DNA of 64,000 nt from Pyxidicoccus parkwaysis (lineage in GTDB: Bacteria > Myxococcota > Myxococcia > Myxococcales > Myxococcaceae): positions 9,662,001 to 9,726,000 of the forward strand of contig NZ_CP071090.1 of NCBI RefSeq assembly GCF_017301735.1, read 5' to 3'. Under the pieces are notes generated by a model. The model made no database searches and was not told the DNA's origin. It worked only from the letters and a program-made list of their open reading frames with translations. Of this stretch, positions 28,368-44,580 are shown in pieces. Every line of letters starts with the position of its first letter. Positions within the stretch are counted from its first letter, which is position 1. The position numbers and the translations under genes are program-made.

Positions 28368-29318
28368 TCAAACCGCGCCATCCGTGGCGTAGCGGGCGCG
28401 GCCGCCGCGCCAGCTCCCGTCGACGAGCCGCTGGATGCGCTGCTCCAGCGGCGGGTGGGTGGAGAACAGGGCCAGCATGCCGCCGCCACGGATGCCGAAG
28501 GCGCGCATGTTGGACGGGAGCATGGCCGCCTCGCCGTGCTGCATCCGCAGCCGGTTCAGGGCTCGCGCCATCGCGCCCGCGTCCACCAGCGTGGCGCCGC
28601 CGTCGTCCGCGCGGAACTCGCGCCGCCGGCTGTACCACGCGACGATGAGGCTGGCGCCGATGCCGAGCACCAGCTGCATCACCAGGCTGGTGAAGAAGTA
28701 CGCGGGGCCAGTGCCACCGCGCTCCTCGCCGTCCTCGGAGCGGTTGAGGAATCGGTCCACAAGGAAGCCCACCACGCGGCTGACGAAGATGACGAAGGTG
28801 TTGAGCACGCCCTGCAGGAGGGTGAGTGTCACCATGTCACCGTTGGCGATGTGAGCCACCTCATGGCCGAGCACGGCCTCCACCTCGTCGCGCCGCATGT
28901 TGTGGAGCAGGCCGGTGGACACGGCGACCAGCGCGCTGTCGCGCCGGGCACCCGTGGCGAAGGCGTTCATGTCCGGGCTGTCATAGACGGCCACCTCGGG
29001 CATGCCGATGCCCGCGTCATGCGCGAGGCGTTGAACGGTATGCACGAGCCACGACTCGGCCTCGGTGCGAGGCGAGTCGATGACGCGGGCGCCGGTGCTC
29101 CACTTCGCCATCGTCTTGGAGAGGAGCAGCGAGATGATGGAGCCGCCGAAGCCCATCACGGCCGACATGATGAGCAGCGCGGTCAGGTTCAGCCCCGAGC
29201 CCTGACGGGCCAGGAAGCTGTCCACCCCGAACAGCCGTCCGACGATGGCGAGCATCGCCACCACCGCGAGGTTGGTCAGGATGAACAGCGCGATGCGACC
29301 GACGAAACTTCGCTTCAT
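28368..29318 (-). CDS. htpX: HtpX-type M48 membrane zinc protease
   Basis: A 316-residue inner-membrane metalloprotease starting at ATG 29318 ([20 protein letters not shown]). Two N-terminal and two C-terminal membrane segments are seen. The zinc site is HEVAH with H152, E153 and H156, and the third ligand is probably the Glu in [33 protein letters not shown] is diagnostic of HtpX, and [10 protein letters not shown] is the usual C-terminal motif. HtpX degrades misfolded membrane proteins alongside FtsH. The gene appears complete. Confidence 0.93.
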
Positions 29319-29577
29319 GACCCTCACCCCGGAAGAACTTCGTTGACCCCAACATTCAGCAGCGCGACGCGGATGCAAGTCGTCGCGGCCGTGAACTGTC
29401 GCGGCAGACAAGGAACAGCGCCGGAGTCGGGGCCTTCCAGAGATTGTTCCTTCGTCGAAGTGAGGTTTTCTCTATGGCTGCGGGGGTTGCGCGGCGTTAT
29501 CCGTCACGGTGTTTCACGTAGGGCAGCTCCAGGCCGTGCGCGCGAAGCGTCTCCTCGTAGACAGTGGATTGGTGGCC

Positions 29578-34156: not shown

Positions 34157-36985
34157 TCACCCCGGGACGGACCCGCGCCGGCTCAGCAGCAATGGCGACG
34201 CGAGGTGACTCTCCGGGTGCATGCGCAGCAGCAGGTGGATGATGCCGCCCATGCCGGGCATCAGCCCCGGAGTGAAGGCATCCTTCGACCAGCCACCCAC
34301 GGGCCCATGCTCCTCCAGGCCGGAGAGAATCGCGGCGTCCCACGCGTCGTGGTCCGGTGTGAGCGCGCCCGGGTCCAGGCGCGCGCCGGCATTGAGCAAC
34401 TCCCACATTCCGAGGTCGCCATGGCAGAGCGTGTGGCTCCAGCCGAAGCCCTCGCGCAGCCCCGCCGCACACGCGCGCGTCGCCACGTCCAGGTGGCGTG
34501 ACTCCCGCGTGCGCACGTGGAGGTCACACGCCGCCAGCCCGATGCCCGTGCTGCCATGGCACCAGTTGGTGAGGAACCGGACGCCCACGCCCGTGCGCGC
34601 ATCGAGCCAGTTGCCCGGCTCCTGCCGGTAGAGCGACTCCTCGAAGTCGAAGGCGCGCTCCGCCAGGTGCAACCACCGCTTGCGCTCGAACTCCGTGCCC
34701 GCTCCGCTGAGCCCCAGCCGCGCGAGCGCCCAGCCGAAGCCCGTCGCGCCATGCGCAAAGCCACCGATGCCCTCGGGGAACATCGACGTACACCACCGCG
34801 CGCCCTCCGAGTCCCGCGTCGCCGAGTCCTCCAGCCTGCGTCCCGCCGCGACGGCGACATGCAGCCACCGCTCCTCACCGGTCTGCTCGGCCAGGTTGAG
34901 CAGCGGCACGATGACGCCCGCCGAGCCGTCCAGCATGTCCAGCAGGCGGTCCTCCTCGGGCATCCGCTGCTCCAGCACCCGCGCGCGAGCCCGGGCCCGC
35001 TCCAGCATCCATGGCTCGCCCAGCAAGTCGTGCAGCGTGCTCCAGGTCCACACCTGCGAGGCCACGCCCAGGAAAGCGCCGAGCCGCTTCGTGGGCACCA
35101 CGTCCTCCGTCGCCCGCAGCACCACGAGCGCGCCGCGCAGCGTGTCCTCCACGCCCGCCACCTCGTCCGCGCGGCCGTGCCGCACCTCGTGCAGGTACTC
35201 CGCGAGGCAGACGGCGACGCCGCCCTGCCCGCTGTAGACGTTGGCCTCCAGCGGGCGGATGGCCCAGCCATGCTCGGCGAGCACGGGGCTTATCCACGTC
35301 ACCGTCCCGTCCGAGCCGCGCACGGCCGCGTCCTGGAGCTGTCTCACGAGCGTCGCGGCCAGCGTCCTGCGGCGCCGGTCCAACCGCTCCGGCTTCGGGC
35401 TGGGAGGCACCTTGTCGCGCGGCTGCGGCGCCAGCTCGTTGAGGTACGCCGTCACCAGCGTCCCCTGGATGGTCATCTCCTCCAGGCTGAAGTCCGCCGA
35501 GCGCCACCCCGCGACCGTCTCGGTGATGAGCGCTTCATCGACGTGAGCCGTGAAGAAGGGCACGTCTCCCGCGAGCATGTCCGTGACTTCCTGCTCGAGG
35601 AGCGAAGGCTCGGTCGGCGCGCCGGGCGTCACCTCCGCGTTGCGGCGCAGGATGTCGCGCGCCCGTGTCATGGCCGTGGGCTCGTCGTGCAGCGAGGCCG
35701 GGTGCCACAGCATCCGGATGACCTCGACATAGGCCTGCGTCGGCCGGCGCACGCGCCGCACCTCGCAGCCGGCGAAGGGGCTCAGCAGCGACGCGGCCCC
35801 GACGCTGGCATCCATCCGCCTCAGCCGCTCGGTGAGGTCCTTGAAACCTCCGACGACCTCGTCCCAGTAGAGCGAGAGCACCGGCTTCGGGCTCGGGTGA
35901 TTCTTGGCCACGTCCAGCTCAATCTCGGTCATCCCGAGGCGCGCGGCGCTGGTGCCACCATCGACGATGGTGGGCACGGGAACCTTCGGCTGCTGCTCCG
36001 GCAGCGCACCCGCCGCGGAGATGTCCAGGCCGGCCATGAGCAGCCCGCTGGAACGGACGGGCAGCAGGCCCGTGCGCAGCACGGTGCGGCGGATGAGCTC
36101 GGCGGCGGCATCCACCGCCTGTCCCCGCTGCGAAGGAGGCACCGGAGGGTCCGGCGCGAAGAGGCTCTCCGCGTCCACCACCACGGGCACCGGCCCGTGC
36201 GCCACCAGGTTCTCCGAGTGCAGGTCCGTGCCGCCCACCAGGCGCATCACCGCGAGCCAGTGGCCGAGGTTCCGGTAGAAGCGGGACAGCTCGGCGTCGC
36301 CGTCGCAGTAGCGGTGCTCGACGAACTCCGTCCAGCCGTAGCCGTCGCGCGCCAGCACGCGCGGCACGCGGATGCGCTCCGAGTCGAGCGTGCCGTCGAA
36401 GATTCGCTCCAGCACCGACTCCAGCGCGCTGTCCACCTGGACGGACCTCGGCTTGTACATCACCGTGCCGTACGCGAGGTCCAGCCGCGCCACGGCCTGA
36501 CCGCCCCGGTGCGAGTCCCCCGCGCCGAGCGTGAGCGCGCGCAATTCTCCTCCCGGAGCACCGGGCAGCTCGACGAGGGCCTCGCGGTCGGCGGCGAAGC
36601 GCTGCGCCAGCGTCAACACGGCGTCGGAGTGGAACTGGCAGAGCGTCGCGAGCCGCGCGTACAGCGTGGGGTAGCGGCGACGCAGGTGCTCGTCGAACGC
36701 GGTCGTGCACGAGAGGTCGAGGAACTGGGCCCAGCGCTCGCGCTCGTCGGGCGCGTCCAGCCTTCCCGTCATCGTCGCGGCATGGAGCTCCAGGAGGAGG
36801 AGCCGGTTCAGGAGCAACTGGGCTCGCTCGTTCAGGCGCGCCGTTGCGGCCGCGCACACGACGTTCCGCTCGGCCGCGCCCAGGCCTCGCACCGCACCGA
36901 GCCTTGCGCCGAGTCCCGCCAGGAACGGTTCCACCAGCTTGACCACGGGACGCTCGAACCAACCCGAACCAGGAGTCTCGGCCAT
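34157..36985 (-). CDS. lanM: Class II lanthipeptide synthetase LanM
   Basis: A 942-residue bifunctional enzyme from ATG 36985 (MAETPGSGWFERPVVKL); an ATG at 37003 is possible. The N-terminal DUF4135 kinase-like domain phosphorylates and dehydrates Ser/Thr of the precursor. Its YKPRS block, H256 and N259 in DLHSEN and D271 in VVDAESLF are seen. The C-terminal LanC-like cyclase (from about residue 590) has the zinc ligands C809 in NWCHGS and C854-H855 in LCHGD, so it should form (methyl)lanthionine rings. The precursor gene lies 101 bp upstream on the same strand. No LanT/LanP gene is adjacent. Confidence 0.94.
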   Translation of the reverse strand: MAETPGSGWFERPVVKLVEPFLAGLGARLGAVRGLGAAERNVVCAAATARLNERAQLLLNRLLLLELHAATMTGRLDAPDERERWAQFLDLSCTTAFDEHLRRRYPTLYARLATLCQFHSDAVLTLAQRFAADREALVELPGAPGGELRALTLGAGDSHRGGQAVARLDLAYGTVMYKPRSVQVDSALESVLERIFDGTLDSERIRVPRVLARDGYGWTEFVEHRYCDGDAELSRFYRNLGHWLAVMRLVGGTDLHSENLVAHGPVPVVVDAESLFAPDPPVPPSQRGQAVDAAAELIRRTVLRTGLLPVRSSGLLMAGLDISAAGALPEQQPKVPVPTIVDGGTSAARLGMTEIELDVAKNHPSPKPVLSLYWDEVVGGFKDLTERLRRMDASVGAASLLSPFAGCEVRRVRRPTQAYVEVIRMLWHPASLHDEPTAMTRARDILRRNAEVTPGAPTEPSLLEQEVTDMLAGDVPFFTAHVDEALITETVAGWRSADFSLEEMTIQGTLVTAYLNELAPQPRDKVPPSPKPERLDRRRRTLAATLVRQLQDAAVRGSDGTVTWISPVLAEHGWAIRPLEANVYSGQGGVAVCLAEYLHEVRHGRADEVAGVEDTLRGALVVLRATEDVVPTKRLGAFLGVASQVWTWSTLHDLLGEPWMLERARARARVLEQRMPEEDRLLDMLDGSAGVIVPLLNLAEQTGEERWLHVAVAAGRRLEDSATRDSEGARWCTSMFPEGIGGFAHGATGFGWALARLGLSGAGTEFERKRWLHLAERAFDFEESLYRQEPGNWLDARTGVGVRFLTNWCHGSTGIGLAACDLHVRTRESRHLDVATRACAAGLREGFGWSHTLCHGDLGMWELLNAGARLDPGALTPDHDAWDAAILSGLEEHGPVGGWSKDAFTPGLMPGMGGIIHLLLRMHPESHLASPLLLSRRGSVPG

Positions 36986-37015
36986 GAAAGGCTTCTCACG
37001 CATGCAAGGGTTTGC

Positions 37016-37058
37016 ACCGTGTGGCACCGGCGGAGCCTGGCCTCCGGTGCCACACGGT
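37016..37058 (-). terminator. 15-bp hairpin between lanA and lanM (attenuator candidate)
   Basis: A perfect 15-bp inverted repeat: ACCGTGTGGCACCGG at 37016-37030 pairs with CCGGTGCCACACGGT at 37044-37058, with a 13-base loop. It is 28 bp after the lanA stop and 31 bp before the lanM start. Such hairpins in lantibiotic operons let most transcripts end after the precursor gene, so precursor greatly exceeds enzyme. No U run follows, so RNA stabilisation is an alternative role. Confidence 0.65.
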
Positions 37059-37086
37059 TGTCAGTCATTCGTGTCTGGCGCTGGAA

Positions 37087-37290
37087 TCAGCAGCAGACGA
37101 CAGGGCGCGAGGCCGTGCAGATGCTACAGCCGGTGCCCATCATCGGGGCCGCGTCGGTGAGCGCGGCCTCGGTCGCGGTGCCACCGACGTACAGCGGCCC
37201 CGCAGGGTTGGCCAGACCGTCAACGCTCTCGGAGCCCGAGAGCCAGCCAGCCAGAATCGCATCCACGTGAGCATCCGTCATCTTCGGCAT
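37087..37290 (-). CDS. lanA: Lanthipeptide precursor peptide
   Basis: A 67-residue peptide from ATG 37290, preceded by GGAGGA. The leader MPKMTDAHVDAILAGWLSGS is acidic and helical, followed by ANPAGPLYVGG (Gly36-Gly37). The C-terminal part ends GTGCSICTASRPVVCC: four Cys (55, 58, 66, 67) and nearby Thr53, Ser56, Thr59 and Ser61 give enough partners for up to four thioether rings. If cleavage follows the Gly-Gly, the core is 30 residues; a shorter core is also possible. Position directly before lanM makes the role firm. I cannot match the core to a known lantibiotic. Confidence 0.88.
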   Translation of the reverse strand: MPKMTDAHVDAILAGWLSGSESVDGLANPAGPLYVGGTATEAALTDAAPMMGTGCSICTASRPVVCC

Positions 37291-37604
37291 GTTGTGTCCT
37301 CCACTTCGGGTGAACGAACCACGTGAAGCGCCGGAACAGGGCCGCCAGCAAGCCGCCGCATCTCGACGCGCGAAAAGAGTAAGCAGACATGTCGATGCAA
37401 CTCCATCCCACCCGTCCAATGCCAGACAACCCATCAGGGATTACCACTAGCTCGCGCGAAGTCGTTTCCAACGGCGGGTCATTTCTTCAGATTGAACGCG
37501 TGCAGGAGGGCAAGACACAGGTGCGTTGCTGTGCTCCCGGTACAGTTCACCCCAGCCGGAGAGAGGTCTTTCCTCTCACGCGGGGTGCTGGCTATAGGCG
37601 GGGC
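37291..37604. other. 314-bp divergent region between lanA and cupin gene
   Basis: This gap holds the lanA promoter (leftward) and the cupin promoter (rightward). It is less GC-rich than the surroundings near 37365-37400 (gcgaaaagagtaagcagac) and 37425-37500. No second precursor gene, helix-rich small frame or regulator gene could be found on either strand. Confidence 0.45.
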
Positions 37605-40767: not shown

Positions 40768-42747
40768 TCAGGCGGCCGCAGCGGCGGCGAACTGGGCGTC
40801 GTAGAGTGCCGCGTAGGCACCACCGCGCTGCAAGAGGGCCTCGTGCGTCCCCTGCTCGACGATGGCTCCCTTCTCCATCACCAGGATGAGATCCGCGTCG
40901 CGAATCGTCGACAGCCGGTGGGCGATGACGAAGCTCGTGCGCTCGGCGCGGAGTGCGGCCATCGCGTGCTGCAACAGGAGCTCGGTGCGCGTGTCGACGG
41001 AGCTGGTGGCCTCATCGAGGATGAGCAGGGCGGGGTTGGCGAGGAACGCGCGGGCAATCGTGATGAGCTGGCGCTCTCCTGCGCTCAGATTTCCGCCGTC
41101 TTCCTCGACGATCGTGTCGTAGCGATTCGGCAGAGCCTGGACGAAGCGATCCACGAAGGTGGCTCGCGCCGCATCGAGAATCTCCTCGTCTGTTGCATCC
41201 GGACGTCCGTAGGCGATGTTGTCCCGGATCGTGCCGTGGAAGAGCCACGTGTCCTGGAGCACCATGCCGATCCGCGCGCGCAGGTCCGCCCGGCGCATCG
41301 ACTGGATGTCCACGCCATCGAGCAGGATCCGCCCTCCACTCACGTCGTAGAAGCGCATCATCAGGTTCACGAGCGTCGTCTTCCCCGCGCCCGTGGGCCC
41401 CACGATTGCCACCGTCTGGCCGGGCTTCGCCACCAGCGACAGCCCTTCGAGGAGCGGCGTCTGGGCCTCGTAGCGGAAGGAGACCTGCTCGAACACGACC
41501 TCACCGCGACCGCCGCTGACGAGCGTGGCGGCGAGCTCCGGCGGCTCCTCCTGCGCATCGAGGAGCTCGAAGACCCGCTCCGCGGACGCCACACCGGATT
41601 GGAGCAGGTTCGCCGAGGACGCAACCTGGGTCAGTGGATGCGTGACTTGACGGACGTACTGAATGAAGGCCTGCACTTCTCCCAGGCTCAGCGCACCACT
41701 TGCGACACGCACTCCCCCGAGCACCGCGATCACCACGTAGTTCACGTTCCCGAGGAACCACGTCATCGGCATGATGAGGCCCGACACGAACTGTGCACCG
41801 AAGCTCGACGCGAAGACCTGCGCGTTGAGTGCTTCGAAGGTCCGCACGGCCTCCGGCTGACGGCCGAACACCTTCACCAGGGACTGGCCCGTGAAGGCCT
41901 CCTCGATGTGCGCGTTGAGCGCCCCCGTCTGGCGCCACTGGTCCACGAACTTGCCCTTGGAGCGCTTCATGATGGCCCCGCTCACCACCATCGTGGCGGG
42001 CACGCTGAGCAGGGCCACGAGCGCCAGCGTCCAGGAGGTCGTGACCATCATCACGATGACGGCAATCACGGTCAGCAGCGAGTTCAAGAGCTGACTCAGT
42101 GTCTGCTGCATCGACTGACCGATGTTGTCGATGTCGTTGGTGACGCGGCTGAGGAGCTCGCCTCGAGGCTGGAGATCGAAATAGCTCAACGGCAACCGGT
42201 GCAGCTTGGCTTCCACGTCCGCACGAAGCTGCCGCACCGCCGCCTGCACCACGTCATTCAGGATGAGGCCCTGGATCCATGCAAAGAGGGAGGAGGCGAC
42301 ATAGAGCACCAGCACCCACTGGATGACCCGCGCGACGGCACCAAAGTCCACGCCCTGTCCCGGCACCACGGGCAGCGTGGAGAGGAGATCCGCGAAGCGC
42401 TCCTGGCCCCGGGCGCGGAGTGCCGCGAGCGCCGCCTCCTTGCCCAGCTGCGCCGGGAGCTGCTTGCCCAGCAGCCCCGCGAAGATGAGGTCCGTCGCAC
42501 GGCCCAGGATACGAGGTCCGAGCGCGGACAGCAGGACCGACAGCACCGCCAGGTTGAAGACGACAAGGAGCTTGACGCGCGAAGGCCTCAAGCGCGCCAT
42601 CAGCCGCTGTGCCGAGCCCCCGAAGTCCGTGGCCTTCTGGCCCACCATGCCGCCAGCGAAGGGGCCACGTCCCGGCATCCCGCCGGACTGGACGACACGC
42701 TCGGTGACCCGCAGCGTTCCCTTGGGCTGCGTCCTGGACTCGCTCAT
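40768..42747 (-). CDS. ABC transporter with fused membrane and ATPase domains (second subunit)
   Basis: A 659-residue half-transporter of the MdlB/LmrD type. Residues about 50-380 form the six-helix exporter domain. The ATPase has Walker A GPTGAGKTTLVN, a Q loop VLQDTWLFHG, the signature LSAGERQLI (normally LSGGQ), Walker B ALLILDEATSSVD and the switch IAHRLSTI. The altered signature suggests one ATP site is degenerate, as is common in heterodimers. Its ATG overlaps the stop of the partner gene (ATGA). It exports an unknown drug, lipid or peptide. No C39 peptidase domain is present. Confidence 0.92.
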   Translation of the reverse strand: MSESRTQPKGTLRVTERVVQSGGMPGRGPFAGGMVGQKATDFGGSAQRLMARLRPSRVKLLVVFNLAVLSVLLSALGPRILGRATDLIFAGLLGKQLPAQLGKEAALAALRARGQERFADLLSTLPVVPGQGVDFGAVARVIQWVLVLYVASSLFAWIQGLILNDVVQAAVRQLRADVEAKLHRLPLSYFDLQPRGELLSRVTNDIDNIGQSMQQTLSQLLNSLLTVIAVIVMMVTTSWTLALVALLSVPATMVVSGAIMKRSKGKFVDQWRQTGALNAHIEEAFTGQSLVKVFGRQPEAVRTFEALNAQVFASSFGAQFVSGLIMPMTWFLGNVNYVVIAVLGGVRVASGALSLGEVQAFIQYVRQVTHPLTQVASSANLLQSGVASAERVFELLDAQEEPPELAATLVSGGRGEVVFEQVSFRYEAQTPLLEGLSLVAKPGQTVAIVGPTGAGKTTLVNLMMRFYDVSGGRILLDGVDIQSMRRADLRARIGMVLQDTWLFHGTIRDNIAYGRPDATDEEILDAARATFVDRFVQALPNRYDTIVEEDGGNLSAGERQLITIARAFLANPALLILDEATSSVDTRTELLLQHAMAALRAERTSFVIAHRLSTIRDADLILVMEKGAIVEQGTHEALLQRGGAYAALYDAQFAAAAAA

Positions 42748-44480
42748 GCGGCCTCCTTCGCATCAGCCTGGGAGCTGGCGATCTCCTGATACGTCTGGCA
42801 CGTCACGAGGAGCTTCTCGTGGCGACCACGGCCGACGATTTCGCCATGGTCGAGGACGAGGATTTCATCCGCGTCCAGGATGCTCGACACGCGTTGGGCC
42901 ACCACGATGACCGCCGCGTCGCGGGTCCAGGGACGGAGCGCGCGACGCAGCCTCGCATCCGTCGCGGTGTCGAGCGCCGAGAACGCGTCGTCGAAGAGGT
43001 ATATCTCCGCGCGACGCACGAGCGCCCTGGCAATGGCGAGGCGCTGGCGCTGTCCCCCTGAGAGGTTCGTTCCTCCCTGGGCAATCGGTGCTTCGAGCTT
43101 TCCCGGGAGGGCCTCGACGAAGTCCCGTGCCTGGGCGACTTCGAGCGCCTCCCAGAGCTCGGCGTCGGTGGCGTCCGGCTTGCCGTAGCGCAGGTTGGAG
43201 GCGACGCTCCCCGAGAACAGATACGCCTTCTGGGGCACGAGGCCGATACGGCTCCACAGCACCTCCGGCTGCAGCTCGCGCACGTCCACCCCATCGACCA
43301 GGACCTGTCCCGCGGTCGCATCGAACAGGCGAGGCACCAGGTTCACGAGCGTGCTCTTGCCGGAGCCGGTGGAGCCGATGATGGCCAACGTCTGTCCGGC
43401 GCGGGCCGTGAAGTCGAGTCTCTCGAGAATGGGCGCGGCGGCACCCGGGTAACGAAAGCCGACACCGGCGAACGTGAGCTCCGCGCGGCGCGGGAGCTCG
43501 GAGCGAGGGGCCTCCGGCGGAGCAACGAGAGGCCGGGTGTCGAGCACCTCCGAGATGCGATCTGCACAGACCGAGGCCCGCGGCACCATCATCAGCATGA
43601 AGGTGCCCATCATCACCGACATCAGGATCTGCACCAGATATGCGAGGAACGCGGTCAACGCGCCCACCTGCATGAGGCCCTGATCCACGCGGTGGCCACC
43701 GAACCACAGCACCCCCACGTTCGAGACGTTCACGATCAGCAGTACCACCGGAAAGATCGTGGCCATGAACCGACCCGTGTACAGCGCGACCTCGGTCAGC
43801 GCGCCATTGGCCTCGGCGAAGCGCTGCGTCTCCACGGGCTCACGGACGAAGGCGCGGACCACGCGCATGCCGGTGATCTGCTCGCGCAGGATGCGGTTCA
43901 CCGCGTCTATCTTCGGCTGCATCCGCCGGAACCCGGGCACCATCCGCGAGATCAGGTACCCCACCGAGAGGAAGAGGGCGGGGATGCAGGCTGCGAGCGA
44001 CCAGGACAGCTGCAGGTCCTCGCGCATCGCCATCAGCACACCCCCCACGACCATGATGGGCGCGGACACCATCATGGTGCAGCTCATCAGGACCAACATC
44101 TGGACCTGTTGCACATCGTTCGTCGTCCGCGTGATGAGCGAGGGTGCACCGAAACGACCGAGTTCCTGGTGGGAGAAGTCGAGGACCTTGCGGAAGATGG
44201 TGGCGCGCAGATCGCGACCGAAGGCCATCGCCGCCTTCGCCCCGAAGAACACCGCTCCCGCGCTGCAGAGGATCTGCACCACGGACACGCCCAGCATCGC
44301 CGCGCCCAGCTGAAGGATGAGGCCCGTGTCACCCTGGGCCACACCCTGGTCGATGATTTGGGCGTTCAGGCTCGGCAGGTACAGCGATGCCATGGTGCCG
44401 AGGAACTGCAGCACCACGACCCAGCCCAGCCAGCCGACGTACGGGGCCAGGTGCGATCTCAAGAGACGCAGCAGCATCAT
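42744..44480 (-). CDS. ABC transporter with fused membrane and ATPase domains (first subunit)
   Basis: A 578-residue half-transporter (MdlA/LmrC type) from ATG 44480 (MMLLRLLRSHLAPYVGWLGW). Six membrane helices fill residues about 1-320. The ATPase has Walker A GSTGSGKSTLVN, the canonical signature LSGGQRQRLAIARAL and Walker B-like YLFDDAFSALD, where the usual catalytic Glu is Asp. This is complementary to the partner, which keeps DEATSS but has a variant signature, as expected for an asymmetric heterodimeric exporter. The four-base overlap with the partner supports joint translation. Confidence 0.92.
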   Translation of the reverse strand: MMLLRLLRSHLAPYVGWLGWVVVLQFLGTMASLYLPSLNAQIIDQGVAQGDTGLILQLGAAMLGVSVVQILCSAGAVFFGAKAAMAFGRDLRATIFRKVLDFSHQELGRFGAPSLITRTTNDVQQVQMLVLMSCTMMVSAPIMVVGGVLMAMREDLQLSWSLAACIPALFLSVGYLISRMVPGFRRMQPKIDAVNRILREQITGMRVVRAFVREPVETQRFAEANGALTEVALYTGRFMATIFPVVLLIVNVSNVGVLWFGGHRVDQGLMQVGALTAFLAYLVQILMSVMMGTFMLMMVPRASVCADRISEVLDTRPLVAPPEAPRSELPRRAELTFAGVGFRYPGAAAPILERLDFTARAGQTLAIIGSTGSGKSTLVNLVPRLFDATAGQVLVDGVDVRELQPEVLWSRIGLVPQKAYLFSGSVASNLRYGKPDATDAELWEALEVAQARDFVEALPGKLEAPIAQGGTNLSGGQRQRLAIARALVRRAEIYLFDDAFSALDTATDARLRRALRPWTRDAAVIVVAQRVSSILDADEILVLDHGEIVGRGRHEKLLVTCQTYQEIASSQADAKEAA

Positions 44481-44580
44481 TGCCTCGGGGAAAGGGAGGG
44501 CGACACGAGCGCACCATGCAGCACGGTGTCGACGATTTCGCCCGGCGTCGAAAGCTGGCTCCCCCCCTCCGGACACCCTA

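Follow-up and report, generated by a model that had tools for sequence, protein, structure and literature searches.

Can a lanthipeptide be made and put to use by a locus that holds little more than a precursor gene and the gene of its modifying enzyme? This question is raised by a lanA-lanM pair of the myxobacterium Pyxidicoccus parkwaysis, carried by the 64,000-nucleotide stretch of contig NZ_CP071090.1 analysed here (the window). A first-pass annotation had described the pair as a minimal class II lanthipeptide locus, with a 67-residue precursor directly before a full-length LanM, and had found it unusually bare. Our explanation as a whole, which we hold to be likely, places the two genes in the DUF6229 (rhodanocin) family as a class II unit whose product would carry four dehydrations, with a hairpin between the two genes and a leader processed by something other than a C39 peptidase.

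According to the open reading frames of the window, both genes lie on the minus strand, lanA first, with a gap of 101 bp (Table 1), and the coordinates and lengths of the first-pass annotation hold. A 917-amino acid open reading frame antisense to lanM (34517-37270, plus strand) was rejected as a high-GC shadow frame.

Table 1. Features of the lanA-lanM pair (positions in the window).
Feature	Position	Strand	Basis
lanA ribosome-binding site GGAGG	37298..37302	-	sequence reading; ATG 7 bases downstream
lanA, DUF6229 precursor, 67 aa, MPKMTDAHVDAILAGWLSGSESVDGLANPAGPLYVGGTATEAALTDAAPMMGTGCSICTASRPVVCC	37087..37290	-	PF19740 E=1.3e-23; frame kept in about 70 loci
Leader motif NPAGPLYVGG, residues 28-37	37180..37209	-	almost unchanged in both LanM clades, A and B
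Predicted core TGCSICTASRPVVCC, residues 53-67, 4 Ser/Thr and 4 Cys	37090..37134	-	alignments; rhodanocin spacing (PMC9576775)
Hairpin, 15 bp outer stem	37016..37058	-	z = -4.4 against 200 shuffles; no T run after stem
lanM, class II lanthipeptide synthetase, 942 aa from ATG	34157..36985	-	TIGR03897 E=7.7e-157; LicM2/CylM homology
LanM dehydratase domain (DUF4135, residues 105-480; K178, D254, H256, N259, D271, R410, R414, T416)	35546..36673	-	PF13575 E=8.9e-99
LanM cyclase domain (LANC_like, residues 578-927; zinc ligands C809, C854, H855)	34205..35254	-	PF05147 E=2.1e-35

Comparison of LanM with TIGR03897 covered positions 28-929 of 932 (E=8e-157, above the cut-off). The residues previously assigned to the dehydratase (H256, N259, D271) and to the zinc site of the cyclase (C809, C854, H855) stand at exactly these numbers, and K178, D254, R410, R414, T416, H745 and H810 are also present. 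Thirteen of the 14 LanM positions checked were invariant among 63 clade-A and 10 clade-B LanMs (the clades are described below); the exception, position 413, is a neighbouring residue to which no catalytic role is ascribed. Judged by these matches, the enzyme is a fusion of a DUF4135 dehydratase and a LanC-like cyclase with the full active-site set, that is a class II synthetase, and is predicted to be active. The same genome contains a second LanM (a 1084-amino acid frame), which has a C39 transporter within a few kb, at G000:C1 11056586-11063176, outside the window; this is probably a conventional class II lanthipeptide locus.

The precursor matches PF19740 (DUF6229) with 83 bits and E=1e-23 (gathering cut-off 25) and is the sole match to this family in the 13.2-Mb genome, while an NCBIfam search returned no family name for it. 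DUF6229 was tied to lanthipeptides in a 2022 Nature Communications paper, in which co-expression of the Dyella precursor with the enzyme of its own cluster gave four dehydrations and three rings (PMC9576775). The product, rhodanocin, is the class II lanthipeptide LanII of Dyella sp. 333MFSha (precursor WP_043693394.1); NMR established its rings, which comprise LL-lanthionine and DL-methyllanthionine (PMC9576775). There is therefore very little doubt that the precursor belongs to DUF6229, the family of the rhodanocins, and that lanA and lanM together make up a class II lanthipeptide unit within it. The class proposed in the first-pass annotation is thus backed by family and domain matches. It also withstood the check that the first-pass annotation had set for itself, since the precursor frame accompanies lanM orthologs in 20 genomes of myxobacteria and at 50 loci of actinobacteria.

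The distribution of the family revealed two LanM clades. DUF6229 occurs in 29 of 195 Myxococcota genomes, in three genera of one family. Clade A, to which the LanM of the window belongs, comprises 20 myxobacterial genomes: that of the window, one other of its genus (G017), three of genus g8 (G033, G106 and G108) and 15 of Corallococcus (g31), in some drafts of which the contig stops before lanM is readable. A scan of named genomes added 50 clade-A-like actinobacterial loci, from Streptomyces, Kitasatospora, Streptacidiphilus, Amycolatopsis and Wenjunlia, and one clade-B-like locus from Kutzneria, where an ABC transporter adjoins lanM; lanA was directly followed by lanM in all 51, lanM being partial at contig ends in a few. 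The scan returned no Dyella or Lysobacter precursor. Clade B is found in ten genomes of the genus of the window, with LanMs about 46% identical to those of clade A. Directly behind its lanM stands an ABC transporter, accompanied in most of the myxobacteria by a berberine-bridge-type FAD enzyme. The transporter of this operon (L041:13246-16478; equivalents in L040 and L043-L048) carries no C39 domain, and the FAD enzyme (FAD_binding_4 and BBE domains) may be a tailoring enzyme, which would be unusual for a lanthipeptide. A clade-B locus is also present in a record titled Comamonas sp. KCTC 72670 (L187), on a 361476-base contig as in genome G024 of the genus of the window; this record is probably mislabelled.

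Examination of the neighbouring genes showed that the bareness is real and is not peculiar to P. parkwaysis. The dedicated LanT or LanP, immunity and regulator genes that the first-pass annotation had noted as lacking were not recognised in the immediate neighbourhood of the pair, and no linked C39 peptidase transporter was found there. Among the 51 loci of the named-genome scan (all actinobacterial, Kutzneria included), LanM was the only family beside the precursor in more than seven; the next neighbour clusters were the precursor frame itself (7 loci) and one protein (5 loci). Across 129 neighbour genes from 36 clade-A loci of both phyla, no Pfam family recurred more than three times, ABC ATPases being present in three, at background level. 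Bareness being the rule for clade A in two phyla, it is neither a peculiarity nor a decay of this genome. The transporter- and protease-free lanA-lanM pair is the normal state of clade A, and the lack of export genes thus characterises the family and is no fault of the P. parkwaysis genome.

A decaying locus without product is hardly credible. Such decay would agree with the patchy distribution in the genus, where the pair lies near htpX (window 28368-29411; it lies elsewhere in g8 and Corallococcus), the orthologous htpX sites of ten other genomes are empty of any lanA-lanM remnant, and G021 keeps at this site a decayed lanM reduced to its C-terminal quarter, without precursor (L039:7665-8426). 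Yet both frames of the window are intact and retain all catalytic residues, and the pN/pS of the precursor was 0.23-0.58 in ten pairwise comparisons, except for a value of 1.21 in one very close pair with few changes.

Which genes, then, could serve export? The nearest exporter genes are an ABC-transporter pair on the same strand (40768-44576, minus), 3.5 kb upstream of lanA-lanM, both with ABC membrane and ATPase domains. It is nevertheless very unlikely that they form a dedicated exporter: opposite-strand genes stand between them and lanA-lanM, in relatives lanA-lanM is not consistently accompanied by any ABC exporter, and a close ortholog of the first of the two genes (40768-42747) is missing from all 26 other genomes of the genus, even from G017 with its own lanA-lanM. 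The ABC pair was therefore probably acquired, and was rejected as dedicated exporter for want of conservation.

Export and cleavage in trans would require a LanT encoded elsewhere, such as the C39 ABC transporter at 11.06 Mb, cutting at the GG of NPAGPLYVGG. Four C39 proteins are encoded in the genome, one of them a few kb from the other LanM; nearly every precursor retains the GG; and 12 of the 13 clade-A myxobacterial genomes tested encode C39 peptidase domains at other sites, so that such an arrangement is possible in those. The usual double-glycine leader, however, does not fit the Tyr at -4 and the Gly at -7 of this motif. Moreover, no C39 peptidase was found anywhere in G117, a Corallococcus draft genome rated complete in which the pair is intact, and the Dyella precursor, although it may contain a double-Gly motif, was left uncut by the broad-specificity C39 protease LahT150 (PMC9576775). 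We consider a LanT acting in trans doubtful here. Given G117 and the failure of LahT150, C39 transporters are probably not what generally removes the leader, and processing by a system other than a LanT-type C39 protein is somewhat favoured.

Comparison with C39 proteins and with ABC transporter orthologs identified no exporter or protease acting in trans for the pair of the window. In particular, an unlinked transporter of the clade-B type was rejected for the genomes with only the two-gene form, where the best matches reached about 35% identity. We infer that leader removal and export would proceed through other systems. In about 11 Corallococcus genomes, a divergent gene for a gingipain-like Peptidase_C25 adjoins lanA (L085:7765-9222, minus strand); it is a possible candidate for a leader protease and was observed beside the pair in Corallococcus alone.

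Alternatively, the modified peptide might not be exported at all but act inside the cell or be released on lysis, transporter, protease and immunity genes never having been needed. This would fit the lack of any conserved neighbour except LanM in about 70 loci of two phyla, the absence of a clade-B transporter ortholog from two-gene genomes and the failure to detect a C39 peptidase in G117. It is nonetheless unlikely: an unlinked transporter would escape an analysis of synteny, and the sole characterised member of the family is antibacterial as a modified peptide, though weakly so, against Klebsiella pneumoniae and after artificial cutting with AspN (PMC9576775). Similarly, we regard as improbable the broader proposal that the two genes are a self-sufficient module, spread horizontally and kept in two phyla without immunity or transport genes, and that its thioether peptide needs no dedicated export because it acts in the cell or upon lysis. 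Processing outside the C39 route, by genes elsewhere in the chromosome, remains our preferred reading.

The core offers a more specific prediction. Window-type clade-A cores follow TxCSxC[ST]xSx4CC, which in the window reads TGCSICTASRPVVCC. The rings of rhodanocin are MeLan T6-C11, Lan C8-S14 and MeLan T12-C23 (PMC9576775), and subtracting five from T6, C8, C11, T12 and S14 gives T1, C3, C6, T7 and S9, which are the core positions of the window; this spacing was taken from the residue numbers in the text of that paper and not from the full Dyella sequence. The five N-terminal ring positions thus agree in spacing, whereas the number and distance of the C-terminal Cys differ. From this likeness, overlapping rings T1-C6 and C3-S9 and a ring from T7 to a C-terminal Cys are predicted, plus one more. 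With four Cys and a shorter C-terminal part than in rhodanocin (three Cys, 23 residues), the ring pattern may nevertheless differ, and we give the rhodanocin register, as read from spacing, an even chance of applying to this product. For the predicted AspN fragment DAAPMMGTGCSICTASRPVVCC, the calculated [M+H]+ is 2172.904 unmodified and 2100.861 after four dehydrations.

Variation of the core among relatives concerns these same positions and lends independent support to the predicted pairing of T1 with C6. T1 and C6 co-occur strictly: among 63 loci both are found in 28 and neither in 35, with no mixed case. The core [GA]xCSSP[ST]GSx4CC, shared by a large group of Streptomyces and Amycolatopsis loci and by Streptacidiphilus, lacks both T1 and C6 and keeps the other ring residues. 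Streptacidiphilus stands apart from the large group in the LanM tree (AU test against one clade with a single origin, p=0.025), which suggests two co-losses. Since these events are few, one well and one moderately supported, the loss of T1 and C6 together on two occasions is probable, but the pattern is suggestive, not conclusive. In three genomes of the Corallococcus group (L145, L149 and L161), S9 is replaced by Cys, giving a core TGCSACTGCADxxCC or TGCSACTACADAYCC with five Cys; this change could possibly swap the C3-S9 lanthionine for a disulfide.

The 101-nt gap between lanA and lanM folds at -45.7 kcal/mol. In five relatives the gap folds with z from -1.9 to -3.4. A local scan showed that most clade-A gaps, in both phyla, have a strong hairpin at this place, though with differing sequences; several gaps (e.g. 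G122, G125, L126, L144 and L157) were not above shuffled ones. These are single-sequence folds, since gaps in a MAFFT alignment of the hairpin regions were too many for base pairs to be counted, and any fold of this kind gains strength from high G+C. As no T run follows it, the hairpin is not a classical terminator. It is likely to be a partial attenuator or a transcript-processing stem that yields more precursor than enzyme.

The proposed mechanism can be set out as follows. LanM would bind the leader, phosphorylate the core residues T1, S4, T7 and S9 and eliminate the phosphate groups, and its zinc site would add Cys thiols to the dehydrated residues. The product would then have four dehydrations, and all its Cys would lie in rings: T1-C6 and C3-S9, which overlap as in rhodanocin, a ring from T7 to C14 or C15 and one from S4 to the other of these. 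The hairpin would probably hold lanM expression below that of lanA. Leader removal and export, if any, would depend on genes elsewhere in the chromosome, probably not of the C39 (LanT) type.

In the literature searched, to which most subscription journals were external, no description of DUF6229 in myxobacteria or actinobacteria was found; the papers found cover Rhodanobacteraceae and Lysobacter, and our findings extend the rhodanocin family beyond these reports to both groups. The first-pass annotation was right about the lanthipeptide class and the bareness, and had missed the DUF6229 family, the clade-wide extent of the bareness, the rhodanocin-like spacing and the hairpin. An odd-looking bare locus becomes a testable class: some 70 lanA-lanM pairs share a conserved core pattern, and neither a transporter nor a protease is linked to them. 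Such pairs raise the question of how, or whether, these peptides leave the cell, and provide a compact target for co-expression with a checkable prediction of ring register. The interest of the locus lies in this conserved transporter-free state and testable register within a known family.

Compared with known systems, the closest solved LanMs are LicM2 (6st5, E 1.8e-61) and CylM (5dzt, E 2.6e-27), which share the two-domain architecture and the catalytic residues and are remote in sequence. The lichenicidin and cytolysin clusters include LanT, protease and immunity genes, unlike the pair of the window. Clade B, in Myxococcus/Pyxidicoccus and Kutzneria, resembles the window in its DUF6229 precursor followed by LanM, its NPAGPL[FY][VI]GG-type leader and its CC end, but differs in a lanA-lanM gap of 6-11 bp without hairpin and a core SGRCGTxC[ST]GSxTxxCC. 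The DUF6229 lanthipeptides of Lysobacter (WP_036102482.1, near the lysobactin cluster) have precursors of the same Pfam family in class II clusters (PMC11451712). That preprint counts 21 unique DUF6229 precursors with Cys/Ser/Thr positions unlike those of rhodanocins, and six families of Lysobacter lanthipeptide precursors, which are set beside our precursor by description only (PMC11451712). With rhodanocin, the window shares the DUF6229 precursor, modification by LanM, the T-x-C-x-x-C-T-x-S core spacing and a GG in the leader, which in Dyella is a possible double-Gly motif (PMC9576775). The Dyella product, obtained as an AspN fragment of 23 residues, has three ring-bound Cys and T12-C23 as its last ring (PMC9576775), whereas the core of the window has four Cys ending in CC, a closer C-terminal spacing and one extra Ser/Thr-Cys pair.
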